DNA of 64,000 nucleotides from Donghicola mangrovi (GTDB lineage Bacteria > Pseudomonadota > Alphaproteobacteria > Rhodobacterales > Rhodobacteraceae), in the NCBI RefSeq assembly GCF_013377535.1, contig NZ_JABCJE010000005.1:62001-126000 (forward strand). Reading direction: 5' to 3'. This document shows positions 2,713-21,238 of this stretch, one piece after another (position 1 is the stretch's first letter; every line of letters starts with the position of its first letter). The position numbers and the translations under genes were made by a program. Below the pieces are notes generated by a model. That model did not search any database. It was not told the DNA's origin and saw only the letters and a list, made by a program, of their open reading frames with translations.

Positions 2713-3182
2713 CAGATCGGTTCCTCGATAATATAGTCTTCCCAGTCCTCTTCATCGACTTCGAATTCGGGGACTGTCCACCCTTGGACCGACACGCCCG
2801 CGTCGTGGACCGATTGCGGCGTCCCTGTCAGCAGGGGGTGCCAGTCGGGCAGGGGGCGGTTCTGGAACAAAAGGCGGTAGGCACAGGTCTCCGGCATCCA
2901 GTAAGCGTGCTGGTCCAGCGTCTCGGGGCGCAGGACGATGCATTCGGGCACAAACTGGTGGCGGATCGGGTACTGGCTGCAGCGGCAGGACTGGTCGTCC
3001 AGCAGGCGGCAGGCGACCTTGGTCAAGGCAACTTCGCCGGTGTCGGGATCCTCGAGCTTGTTCAGGCAGCACTTGCCGCAGCCGTCACAGAGGGCTTCCC
3101 ATTCGGTCTCGGTCAGCTTGTCCAGAGGAAAGCGTTCCCAGAACCGGGGGCGGATTTTCTTGCGGTTGATCGGGTCTTTCAT
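2712..3182 (-). CDS. YcgN/UPF0260 family cysteine-cluster protein
   Basis: A 156-residue cytoplasmic protein of the YkgJ/YcgN type cysteine-cluster family. The signature is CDGCGKCCLNKLEDPDTGE near residues 33-51 followed by CRLLDDQSCRCSQYPIR, giving eight or more cysteines able to hold a metal or Fe-S cluster. The segment PRFWERFPLDKLTETEWEAL at the N-terminus is typical of UPF0260. Molecular function is not established for this family. It overlaps ribF upstream and ltaE downstream by four bases each, so the three genes are translationally coupled. Confidence 0.85.
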   Translation of the reverse strand: MKDPINRKKIRPRFWERFPLDKLTETEWEALCDGCGKCCLNKLEDPDTGEVALTKVACRLLDDQSCRCSQYPIRHQFVPECIVLRPETLDQHAYWMPETCAYRLLFQNRPLPDWHPLLTGTPQSVHDAGVSVQGWTVPEFEVDEEDWEDYIIEEPI

Positions 3183-4114
3183 AGGGCGGCCAGAATTTCG
3201 CGCGATTTGGCGCTGTCTGCATCCATCTGGGTGATCAGCGCCTCAAGGCTGTCGAACTTCAGCTCGGGACGCAGGTAGTCGACGAGGCCGACAGACAGAT
3301 GGGTGCCGTAGAGATCGCCCTTGAAATCAAAGATAAAGGTCTCGAGGTTGGGGGTGTTTTCCCCGAACATCGGACGCACACCCAGCGAGGCGACGCCGTG
3401 GTAGTTGCCTTTGTGGGGGCCTTCCTTGACCTCGACCAAGACGGCATAGACGCCGAGTTTGGGCAGGTGCAAGCCATCCACGGACATGTTCGCGGTAGGG
3501 TAGCCCAGATCGCGGCCGCGCTGTTCGCCGCTGATCACGGGACCGTCGATGCGGTGCCAGTGGCCCAGCATTTCGGCGGCGTGGCGCGGGTTGCCGTCGG
3601 CCAGTGCCTGACGGATCGCGGTCGAGGATACTCGGCCCTGAGAGCCTTGAATCATATCGGCAATCGTCACTTCGAACCCCATTTCAGCGCCCATGCGGGA
3701 CAGGTCTTCGGCGGTGCCACTGCGGCCCTTGCCGAACTGGAAATCGTTGCCCACCACTACGTGGCACAGGCCAAGCCCCTTGATCACGTCATGGGCAAAG
3801 GCCTCGGCGCTCAGGCCGGCGAGCGGGCCGTTGAACGGCAATTCATACAGAATATCGACCCCCAGCTTCGCCAGACGCGCGGCACGGGCTTCGGCGCTCA
3901 TGAGGCGGAAGGGCGTGCCCTTGGGGGCAAAGAACTGGCGGGGATGTGGTTCAAAGGTCATGACGCCCAAGGGGGCGTTCAGACGTTCCGCAGCGGCGCG
4001 GGCCAAGTCGATGACCGCTTGATGGCCCAAATGGACGCCATCGAAATTCCCGATGGCGACGCTGGCACCTCTGTTTTCCGGTGCGATGAACTGATGATCG
4101 CGAATGATGCGCAT
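3179..4114 (-). CDS. ribF: Bifunctional riboflavin kinase / FAD synthetase
   Basis: Converts riboflavin to FMN and then FAD. The 311-residue protein has both domains in the usual order. The N-terminal nucleotidyltransferase half carries SVAIGNFDGVHLGHQAVI (G-x-F-D-G-x-H-x-G-H motif, about residues 18-35), VVGNDFQFGKGRSG and VSSTAIRQALADG. The C-terminal flavokinase half has RGRDLGYPTANMSV, with the PTAN Mg-ATP motif, and LETFIFDFKGDLYG. Length and architecture are standard. It is the first gene of the operon with ycgN-like and ltaE genes, four-base overlap with the next. Confidence 0.96.
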   Translation of the reverse strand: MRIIRDHQFIAPENRGASVAIGNFDGVHLGHQAVIDLARAAAERLNAPLGVMTFEPHPRQFFAPKGTPFRLMSAEARAARLAKLGVDILYELPFNGPLAGLSAEAFAHDVIKGLGLCHVVVGNDFQFGKGRSGTAEDLSRMGAEMGFEVTIADMIQGSQGRVSSTAIRQALADGNPRHAAEMLGHWHRIDGPVISGEQRGRDLGYPTANMSVDGLHLPKLGVYAVLVEVKEGPHKGNYHGVASLGVRPMFGENTPNLETFIFDFKGDLYGTHLSVGLVDYLRPELKFDSLEALITQMDADSAKSREILAAL

Positions 4115-19283: not shown

Positions 19284-19784
19284 ATGCCCGGAACACGACT
19301 AGATCCCATTGATCGTAGAATCCTGGCCGAGTTGCAGGCAGATGGCCGCATGACCAATGTCGAACTGGCAAAACGCGTTGGAATCTCTGCGCCGCCGTGT
19401 TTGCGCCGCGTTCGCACGCTCGAAGAGGCCGGCTACATCAAGGGCTATCACGCCGATGTGGACGCCCGCGCGCTGGGGTTCGAGGTCAAGGTTTTCGCCA
19501 ACGTCGGTCTGATCAGCCAAGCCGAAGCCGATCTGAGCGCCTTTGAGGCCCGTTGCCGTGCTTGGCCGCTGGTTCGCGAATGCCACATGCTGAACGGCGA
19601 GGTTGATTTCCTGCTGAAATGCGTGGCGCCCGACCTGTCCACCTTCCAGTCGTTCCTGACCGAACAGCTGCTGAAGGCCGATAATGTGGCCAGCGTGAAG
19701 ACATCGCTGGTTATTCGCGGCGAAAAGGACGAGCCCGGCGTGCCCTTTGACGTTCTGGAAGAGCGCCTGAGCCGCAACGCTTGA
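19284..19784 (+). CDS. Lrp/AsnC family transcriptional regulator
   Basis: A 166-residue regulator. The N-terminal winged helix-turn-helix is LDPIDRRILAELQADGRMTN then VELAKRVGISAPPCLRRVRT, and the C-terminal RAM (amino-acid-sensing) domain runs from about residue 65 to 155 with VRECHMLNGEVDFLLKCV. It likely senses an amino acid and controls transport or metabolism genes; its ligand is unknown. GGAAAG lies eight bases ahead of the chosen ATG. A candidate autoregulatory dyad sits upstream and a terminator downstream. Confidence 0.92.
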   Translation: MPGTRLDPIDRRILAELQADGRMTNVELAKRVGISAPPCLRRVRTLEEAGYIKGYHADVDARALGFEVKVFANVGLISQAEADLSAFEARCRAWPLVRECHMLNGEVDFLLKCVAPDLSTFQSFLTEQLLKADNVASVKTSLVIRGEKDEPGVPFDVLEERLSRNA

Positions 19785-19871: not shown

Positions 19872-20019
19872 AGAAAAAAGCGACCCCGTGTGACGGTTGA
19901 GGCTCCGTCGGGATCGCTCTTTACTTCAACACGCCGTTTCCGGCAAAAACCGCGAGGCCTGCGGTCTGGAAGGACTGCCCCGCTGGGGCAGACAGCTCAC
20001 TTTGCGGTGAGGTTGCCCC
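19872..20019 (-). ncRNA. Candidate structured small RNA, about 148 nt
   Basis: Not assigned to a known family. On the minus strand a TTGACA promoter box (20049-20044) leads into a chain of hairpins. GGGGCA/TGCCCC (20019-20014 with 19990-19985) encloses CTCAC/GTGAG. ACCGC/GCGGT lies at 19965-19949. GCCG-GAAA-CGGC (19944-19933) has a GNRA tetraloop. A 9-bp terminator stem, GCGATCCCG/CGGGGTCGC (19917-19880), encloses ACGG/CCGT and ends in TTTTTT (19879-19874). The only minus-strand reading frame inside is 34 codons with no convincing ribosome-binding site. Nothing downstream on that strand could be controlled in cis, so a free-standing regulatory RNA is the best reading. Confidence 0.65.
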
Positions 20020-20020
20020 A

Positions 20021-20049
20021 TTCATGCCTTAATTCGGCAGGCGTGTCAA
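20021..20049 (-). promoter_or_regulatory. Predicted promoter of the small RNA
   Basis: Minus-strand TTGACA (20049-20044), 17 bases, then CATGAA (20026-20021). The -35 box is perfect and the -10 matches three of six. The predicted start falls at about 20019-20013, at the first stem of the RNA. Confidence 0.5.
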
Positions 20050-20209
20050 AGATTTGACGCAAGATTTCATTGAATCCCAAGATCCGCGCCCAATGGGTGG
20101 TCAATGGCGGGTGGACCGGTGAAATTGTTCTGAAATCCTGACCTAATGTTTTCGCGTTTCTGCAAATTGCTGCATCTGTAAGGCAGCTTTGCGGGAGCGC
20201 GTGATTCGT

Positions 20210-20350
20210 TTAGGCAGACTTTCTGATCTCTTCGATGCGCTTGGTGGTCTGCGCCTTGCGAGGCTTGCCACGCGACCACGGCATCGGCCCGATTGCTTGA
20301 TCTGCGGATGTTTTCAGGACCGACTGGATAAAACGGGTCTTGGCTTTCAT
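20210..20350 (-). CDS. Small basic protein, 46 residues, conserved type
   Basis: ATG at 20350 to TAA at 20210. It begins MKAKTRFIQSVLKTSADQ and continues with GPMPWSRGKPRKAQTTKRIE before ending EIRKSA. About one third of residues are Lys or Arg, with an invariant-looking MPWSRG core. From memory, short basic proteins with a KTRFIxSV start and MPWxRG core recur in Rhodobacteraceae, without assigned function; they could bind nucleic acid. The ribosome-binding site (GAGAG, 9 bases ahead) is modest. The gene lies downstream of pgeF on the same strand by 132 bases and upstream of the small-RNA candidate. Confidence 0.65.
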   Translation of the reverse strand: MKAKTRFIQSVLKTSADQAIGPMPWSRGKPRKAQTTKRIEEIRKSA

Positions 20351-20482: not shown

Positions 20483-21238
20483 CTAGAGGCGAATGGCCGA
20501 AATCAGACGCCCGTAATCGGCTTCTCCGGCGTGGCAAGTGCGGCGGAACGAGTAGAATCGATCCGCGTCCGAATAGGTGCAGTGGCCGGTCCATTGCGCC
20601 TCGCCGACGCCCGCGCTGCGCAGGCGGTGCAGGCCATAGGAGGGCAGGTCGAACAGCATCCGGTCGCCGTTGCCTTGGGCAAAGAAGCGGGTGTTGTCCG
20701 CATCATCAGCGATGAAATTGTCAAAGAATTCAGGGCCAACTTCGTAGGCGCGCTGGCTGATGGTGGGGCCGATCAGGGCGCGGATGTTAGCACGGGTCGC
20801 GCCGATGCTTTCCATTGCATCAAGGGTCGCGTCCAGAATTCCCGAAACCGCACCTTTCCAGCCAGCGTGGGCTGCGCCGATCACGCCTGCCTCGGGGTCG
20901 TGGAACAGCACGGGCTGGCAGTCGGCGGTCAGGATGGCGATGGCGATGCCGGGGGTGCGGGTGACGATGCCGTCCGCCTCGACCGGAGCATCCAGCGGGC
21001 CGTCCACCACGATGGCGTCGGCCGAGTGGGTCTGGTGGACGGTGACCAGATTGGTGCGCTCGACCCCCATCGCGTCAGCGACGCGGGCGCGGTTGATGGC
21101 CACGATGTCCTTTTGGTCGGACGATCCGGCGCCGCAGTTCAGGCCCGCAAAAATCCCCGAAGAGGCGCCGCCCTTTCGCCCGAAAAATCCGTGGCGTGTG
21201 GGTTCCAGCAAATCATGGGAGATAATGTCGAGCGTCAT
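20483..21238 (-). CDS. pgeF: Peptidoglycan editing factor PgeF (multicopper polyphenol oxidase fold)
   Basis: A 251-residue cytoplasmic protein of the YfiH/PgeF family, which removes wrongly incorporated residues (L-Ser for L-Ala) from peptidoglycan precursors and was earlier called a laccase. Metal-binding landmarks are VTVHQTHSADAIVVDG, ILTADCQPVLFHDPEAGVIG, AAHAGWKGAVSGIL and the IGPTISQRAYEVGPEF motif. Standard length. It is the last gene of an lgt-midA-pgeF cluster with a two-base gap behind the methyltransferase, an arrangement that suits an envelope or respiratory maintenance operon. Confidence 0.92.
   Translation of the reverse strand: MTLDIISHDLLEPTRHGFFGRKGGASSGIFAGLNCGAGSSDQKDIVAINRARVADAMGVERTNLVTVHQTHSADAIVVDGPLDAPVEADGIVTRTPGIAIAILTADCQPVLFHDPEAGVIGAAHAGWKGAVSGILDATLDAMESIGATRANIRALIGPTISQRAYEVGPEFFDNFIADDADNTRFFAQGNGDRMLFDLPSYGLHRLRSAGVGEAQWTGHCTYSDADRFYSFRRTCHAGEADYGRLISAIRL

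Follow-up and report, generated by a model that had tools for sequence, protein, structure and literature searches.

Small RNAs of the CcsR and alpha-r types, found in Rhodobacter and the rhizobia, are trans-encoded, Hfq-type sRNAs with C-rich loops. The leader of the IS200 transposase mRNA also has sRNA activity. In Rhodobacter sphaeroides, UTR-derived sRNAs are described as products of the 3' UTRs of living mRNAs (PMC8625941). The origins of bacterial small RNAs are an open question with few traceable cases, and among the papers listed in literature searches none describes a bacterial sRNA that arose through decay of a protein gene.

The locus compared here with these systems lies in Donghicola mangrovi, in a stretch of 64,000 nucleotides that was analysed as a whole and is called the window. 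Its minus strand very probably carries, as judged from sequence, an undescribed, free-standing structured small RNA gene (Table 1). The full reading that we favour, with moderate confidence, is that this gene of ~147 nt is derived from a Hint gene and that its CCUC/CUCU loop pairs in trans with Shine-Dalgarno sequences. The gene order at the locus is pgeF (20483-21238, minus strand; its product matches TIGR00726 at 176 bits), a 46-aa frame (20350..20213, minus strand), the RNA, the convergent lrp (19284-19784, plus strand) and trxB. The first-pass annotation had placed the RNA between trxB/lrp and pgeF and had seen no gene downstream on the minus strand; these flanks are right, and lrp converges from the plus strand instead, while the 46-aa frame on the same strand just upstream of the RNA had been overlooked. 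This frame (20213-20350, MKAKTRFIQ...PMPWSRG..) stands directly 3' of pgeF, has counterparts in this position in several genera and gave no Pfam or NCBIfam match.

Table 1. Features of the RNA gene and its upstream region, in positions of the window
Feature	Position	Strand	Basis or remark
Small RNA gene	19872..20019	-	~147 nt, 5' end approximate; 4/4 genus genomes, alignment, fold
-35 box TTGACA	20044..20049	-	read in sequence; invariant across 4 genus genomes
Putative weak -10 CATGAA, 17-nt spacer	20021..20026	-	read in sequence
Palindrome GTCAAA-N2-TTTGAC over the -35, possible operator	20045..20058	.	once per genome, 4 genus genomes
Hairpin H1	19996..20011	-	paired in L009, L010, L027; 4/5 pairs in L028
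Hairpin H2	19975..19991	-	paired in 3/4 genomes, changes on both sides; absent in G296
Hairpin H3	19947..19967	-	CCGC/GCGG becomes CCAC/GTGG in G296
Hairpin H4, GNRA loop	19933..19944	-	GCCG-GAAA-CGGC becomes CCGC-GCAA-GCGG in G296
Terminal two-storey hairpin + T6, terminator	19874..19922	-	homologous to Hint-embedded hairpin; models R2/R3, covariation
Apical loop AGCCUCAA, proposed pairing site	19897..19904	-	CTC in 47/47 member loops

The minus-strand TTGACA box with 17-base spacing named in the first-pass annotation can be read as described, and a consensus promoter scan listed no minus-strand promoter at the RNA gene because the -10 is so poor. The palindrome over the box is perfect in all four Donghicola-like genomes that make up the genus set, with a different N2 in one of them (G296). 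It occurs exactly once per genome, always at the RNA locus, and the backwards pattern has 0 occurrences; its spacing to a GGCAAC further on is 41 nt in all four. Elsewhere in the family, the longer form TGTCAAA-N2-TTTGACA was found in 5 of 198 genomes, at 6 places which by eye looked unrelated to the RNA locus, and these were set aside.

The RNA (19872-20019) folds at -65.3 kcal/mol, compared with -52.4 (sd 4.2) for dinucleotide shuffles, of which 0/200 were as stable (z -3.05); with one base fewer, the z value is -2.81 and 1/200 shuffles is as stable. Its three genus relatives fold with z -3.83, -3.59 and -3.53, and for each of them 0/200 shuffles were as stable. The pairing of H1-H3 differs between single-sequence folds, so the four-hairpin structure, already proposed at first reading, is retained on the strength of comparison with the genus relatives. 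The GCCG/CGGC stem capped by GAAA is also present as claimed. Of the terminator as first drawn, the T6 holds (19879..19874, minus strand) and the size of the stems, 9 bp outer and 4 bp inner, does not: the outer stem has 13 pairs (9 core + 4 A-U/G-U), the inner stem has 5 bp, and 4 nt are bulged on the 3' side. A terminator scan did not have it in its minus-strand list.

The RNA is present in 4/4 genus genomes, in G296 only partly by BLAST, and an alignment of the orthologous gaps, which the first-pass annotation had suggested as a search for compensatory changes, found the stems kept with such changes within the genus. For H3 and H4 together, 10 of 11 hand-aligned pairs are kept in G296 despite many changes, and the GNRA loop is kept; randomised replacement letters equal this pairing in 0.6% of cases. 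Between two close Donghicola species, compensation in H1 and H2 does not reach significance by itself (p 0.20 and 0.44). H1-H4 were not recognisable outside the genus, and small-protein reading frames across the RNA are not conserved within it. A promoter (with a weak -10), a structured RNA, a terminator and the lack of a conserved reading frame are thus all found together, as in the class of trans-encoded small regulatory RNAs.

A search of the window against Rfam 15, also suggested in the first-pass annotation, returned 0 matches, and a scan of 49 related loci (12 + 17 + 20) likewise gave 0 matches. The sole Rfam match at this place was mir-5856, obtained from a 701-nt stretch at E 10 and rejected because its 17.7 bits fall far short of the cut-off, 90. 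The RNA had not been taken for 6S RNA at first reading, and there was indeed no covariance-model match to RF00013 at this locus. Another contig of the same assembly carries a 6S RNA match (G000:C63:51133-51291, minus strand) of 33.6 bits, below the cut-off of 46.4, which is possibly the genome's own 6S RNA. Given no Rfam match, compensated stems and a fixed promoter spacing, the earlier call of a new structured small RNA gene is supported.

Literature searches found no paper joining sRNA, pgeF and Rhodobacter, none joining Dinoroseobacter shibae sRNA and transcription start, and for Donghicola small RNA only one CRISPR paper. A word search of PMC4809877, on the sRNAs of R. pomeroyi, found no AsnC, Lrp, laccase, thioredoxin reductase, Hint or polyphenol, and the sRNAs in the passages of PMC5107571 considered, on Paracoccus, were not mappable to the pgeF/lrp locus. 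No paper on this RNA was found among those listed, and some member may already have been detected by RNA-seq.

Whole-genome searches did not reach distant relatives, which surfaced only via syntenic gaps. DNA BLAST of the RNA matched in 18/295 family genomes, of which two were convincing (its own and G039), and the 16 further matches, of only 20-33 nt, were set aside. A model built from genus members alone (R1) matched in 11/295, where again its own genome and G039 were convincing and the others reached at most 22.7 bits; R1 also matched a locus (L055) in the same gap and orientation, with 28 bits and an E value of 1e-5 over 330 kb. The pgeF-lrp gaps of two loci from other genera (L076 and L070) have the same terminator design. 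The L076 element matched in 6/295 genomes, four times at the pgeF locus; the other two matches, of 24-29 nt and without locus genes, were rejected.

Using a second model (R2), built from ten hairpins, together with synteny, 17 of the 295 family genomes were found to have a stand-alone hairpin by pgeF, 13 of them also with lrp. The 17 include its own genome and G039; 16 score at least 35 bits, and the remaining one, G221, scores 29.5. In all 17, the hairpin stands beside pgeF in the same locus and orientation. Twelve R2 matches without lrp or pgeF (L184-L191 and L193-L196; 37-57 nt, 28-34 bits) were not accepted. Of 20 weaker R2 places, five are at the locus (all Hint), 14 lack the query genes and one (L216) has only a Lrp-like match of 38.6%.

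A third model (R3) was built from 27 hairpins of both forms, the window RNA among them, so that its own 56.5 bits against R3 is the score of a member that helped build the model. At 47 bits or more, R3 matched 26/295 genomes, 17 with the stand-alone and 9 with a Hint-embedded hairpin, and 16 more matches of at least 50 nt (26.7-43.7 bits) are all Hint-embedded at the pgeF locus. Under these strict filters, the hairpin is at the pgeF locus in at least 42 of the 295 sampled genomes, 17 stand-alone and 25 Hint-embedded. R3 matches of any kind occur in 88/295 genomes, of which 42 were assigned to the locus. The other matches are all shorter than 50 nt and are taken as ordinary terminators, since similar ones scoring as high as 37.6 bits occur in other families. 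That ceiling comes from 289 genomes of the class, at least 4 of them Rhodobacteraceae, in which matches outside the family are mostly 34-52 nt, the longest being 57 nt with 27.1 bits.

These data make it highly likely, at the level of sequence and synteny, that the window RNA is a member of an undescribed RNA family of the Rhodobacteraceae whose place is next to pgeF and, in most cases, lrp. The RNA gene of the first-pass annotation is upheld, and it is not an isolated one: the terminal hairpin is common to RNAs of the same locus and to a hairpin within Hint genes. In the wider set, 25/27 loci have a TTTGAC at a distance of 71-218 nt upstream of the hairpin.

Three further observations were made among the stand-alone loci. 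An ATTAAG(A/G)AT-containing stretch lies by the -35, just upstream of TTTGACA, in L164, L173, L175 and L178, and is a possible regulator site. A 5' hairpin resembling ACAGAUGUCC..UCUGU and/or a GGUAAGACCU-like motif is seen in L163, L164, L173, L178, L180, L181 and L077, and is absent in the Donghicola RNA. L077, from a Pseudorhodobacter MAG outside the 295-genome sample, is itself one more stand-alone member; at positions 3078-3400 of this locus, a same-strand frame begins ~50 nt after the hairpin, instead of the convergent lrp.

A same-locus hairpin inside an open reading frame was first met in G080 and in the five weaker R2 places mentioned above. The frame fills the same gap and encodes a Hint_2 protein (PF13403 in three examples), for which NCBIfam had no model in the two examples searched. 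The embedded hairpin lies in the N-terminal coding region, where it covers codons such as GRPQRSQPLMRKYEVAHLA, and it is not followed by a T-tract. Many Hint genes are without the hairpin, since among the 16 Hint loci of the named set only L068 matched, weakly (20.1 bits). A conserved leader hairpin (GUUGUCGGUGGGGGCCGACA-like) was also seen 5' of the Hint start in L183, L197-L199, L201, L238-L247 and L249-L256, and is possibly a second RNA element; a GGTGGGG leader occurs in 23/25 Hint loci vs 0/22 stand-alone loci, and an Rfam scan of 21 of the 25 Hint loci gave no match. At E 10, no Hint-like protein was found in any of the 22 stand-alone loci. In 18/22 stand-alone members the hairpin is crossed by mechanical reading frames, which are mutually unlike or run antisense through lrp.

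The terminal hairpin of the family has a 10-bp outer stem, a 5-6-bp inner stem, a 3' bulge and a CUC-bearing loop. In the 22 stand-alone hairpins, 97.7% of cells are paired and double changes occur at 14/16 pairs, values equalled by 0/500 shuffles in either case, and pairing drops to 44-56% when slid. For the Hint-embedded form, in an alignment of 27 rows of which two are unrelated terminators, 90.9% of cells are paired, with double changes at 10/16 pairs, 0/500 shuffles as high and 32-47% paired when slid; at one pair, 14 rows have A-U where 10 others have G-C, and the outermost pair of the inner stem is not formed in 21 of the 25 Hint-gene rows. In the first ten hairpins, double-change cells numbered 25 vs a shuffled mean of 10, and two of five covariation measures were not above chance, 170 and 395 of the 500 shuffles reaching the observed values; with 23 hairpins, one of five was not (201 of 500). 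All these comparisons use shuffles that ignore relatedness, and the later alignments were fitted to the model.

The loop has CTC in 47/47 members. Counting the closing pair, CCTC is found in 18/22 stand-alone and 21/25 embedded hairpins, and CTCT in 17/22 and 24/25, respectively. The P-L-M codons of the loop may be constrained by the protein in Hint genes, an explanation that does not apply to the constant loop of the non-coding form. Several stand-alone members are without a good U-tract, e.g., L070 with TATCTGCTTC and L164 with TAAACATTTG, so termination there is uncertain.

A simpler explanation is that the hairpin is a mere terminator between convergent units, acting bidirectionally for the lrp and pgeF strands, with no independent regulatory RNA. 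The convergent genes at the locus suit it, as do the weak scores of some hairpins on the opposite strand and the ordinary terminators elsewhere that reach the 37.6 bits with R3. It does not account for the conserved TTTGAC box upstream, with its fixed spacing and unique palindrome in the genus, nor for the compensation in H3/H4 and the constant loop. Moreover, lrp (plus strand) carries its own terminator-like hairpin in the window, and the hairpin exists inside Hint genes where no T-tract follows. We consider this explanation improbable.

A cis-acting element would be a hairpin controlling Hint translation or elongation, the stand-alone form being an attenuated leader or a cis-acting leader of the following gene. 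This is the main rival to the reading as a free-standing RNA because L077 has, after its stand-alone hairpin, a same-strand frame that is in frame with one spanning the hairpin. The hairpin also sits and covaries within the N-terminal codons of Hint, and a conserved leader hairpin precedes the embedded one (23/25). Against this, nothing follows on the strand in the window, and in 13 of the 17 stand-alone sampled genomes the next gene found is the convergent lrp. A cis role is judged unlikely.

To order the two forms, a tree of pgeF, lrp and trxB was used, with 80 rows: 20 stand-alone, 39 Hint, 19 chosen neither-form loci and 2 outgroup rows. It left out L178, L245 and L255 (no full pgeF), L161 (close to L070) and L077, and 11 rows were under half filled. 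Nineteen of the 20 stand-alone rows fall in one clade together with 12 neither-form rows (SH-aLRT 96, and 97/95), and the lineages next to this clade carry Hint. The twentieth, G221 (L192), groups with a Hint row and a neither-form row (96/98). Support is weak at the deepest branches, and Hint is found on either side of them.

Hint-like codon letters are seen in the 3' arm or tail of stand-alone members, such as GAAYLL in L070, GAAYLF in L076, IEVAFL in L192 and YGVAFF in L010, next to a Hint consensus of YEVAHLLP; the similarity of the tail to Hint codons beats 95% of random 12-mers in only 6 of the 18 measured (of 22 stand-alone). The Donghicola U-tract probably comes from Hint codons because its TTT TTC occupies the place where Hint has H/F/Y-L codons. 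Tree and codon letters together suggest that the RNA with the terminal hairpin is likely to descend from a Hint gene. The ancestor would have been a Hint mRNA whose 5' region was structured. In the clade that holds Donghicola, Rhodobacter and Tabrizicola, the coding sequence would then have been deleted and the stretch from promoter to hairpin retained; in Donghicola, codons that had followed the hairpin would have turned into a U-tract and so into a terminator.

There is nearly an even chance, in our judgement, that the ancestral Hint mRNA was dual-function, encoding a protein and carrying inside its coding region a hairpin of independent function, that at least two lineages, the Donghicola/Rhodobacter clade and separately G221, lost the protein and kept the RNA, former codons supplying the Donghicola terminator, and that L192, L070 and L076 are intermediates. 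An alternative is a relic, the leader of a lost Hint gene that is now functionless, with stems kept by chance or solely as a terminator. The vestigial codon letters fit a relic, as do the losses in related loci (the 12 neither-form rows in the same clade) and the weak U-tracts in several members. A functionless leader is nonetheless rather improbable in view of the double changes that preserve pairing at 14/16 pairs, the loop kept in the non-coding form, and the new stems and T6 in Donghicola.

For the retained hairpin RNA, trans action is plausible from sequence, and a block of translation in trans is its most likely action because CCUC/CUCU is complementary to the purines of the Shine-Dalgarno sequence. 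A sigma-70-type promoter would drive the RNA, perhaps under the control of a regulator bound to the palindrome, and the U-rich 3' end of the RNA would recruit Hfq. The apical CCUC/CUCU loop would then pair with a purine-rich Shine-Dalgarno sequence (GAGG/AGAGG) of target mRNAs, so that translation is blocked, and the upper hairpins may serve to protect the RNA or to tune how accessible the loop is. As a speculation from the letters, the 5' end in the genus (GAGGC or GGGGC; AAGGC in one) could pair with GCCUC of the loop and hide it. The pairing of the loop with Shine-Dalgarno sequences is put forward tentatively. The loop complement GTTGAGGCT has 13, 20, 32 and 33 sites in the four genus genomes vs 22, 24, 24 and 11 for a reversed control, and only G296 clearly exceeds its control (33 vs 11). 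When 30 loci of the 98 target matches were checked for a ribosome-binding position, there was no evident recurrent target; 10 of these 30 have a start codon with at least 70 codons downstream, with no evident repeat among their beginnings.

The stacked hairpins might instead titrate an RNA-binding protein (Hfq, a CsrA-like protein or another), with no pairing to mRNA. Several compact hairpins, and a GNRA loop kept while the letters of its stem change, are consistent with protein binding. The constant feature, however, is one single-stranded CUC loop and not a repeated motif, and H1-H4 are not common beyond the genus, which leaves protein titration quite improbable.

If the preferred reading of a Hint-derived trans-acting RNA is right, a widespread bacterial family would gain a new regulatory RNA with a constant loop. 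One chromosomal locus presents a coding form with an embedded hairpin next to a non-coding form, with recognisable intermediates and a tree to order them. The data also suggest that an RNA structure inside a Hint-domain gene matters in itself.

Compared with 6S RNA (RF00013), the window RNA is of the same size class and is likewise intergenic; it differs in having no match to the 6S model, and the 6S-like match of its own genome is on another contig. It resembles the CcsR and alpha-r sRNAs in being a free-standing gene with hairpins, a U-rich terminator and a C-rich loop able to pair with a Shine-Dalgarno sequence, yet its loop is without the CCUCCUCCC motif, its locus is another one, it apparently descends from a protein gene, and its Hfq role is a prediction. 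As in the IS200 leader, the 5' region of a coding transcript is predicted to act as an RNA, here from a chromosomal Hint gene with no transposon and with the coding part deleted. Like the UTR-derived sRNAs of R. sphaeroides, as described in PMC8625941, the RNA is related to a part of an mRNA; unlike them, the protein part appears to be gone and the 5' part to have been kept as a gene of its own.
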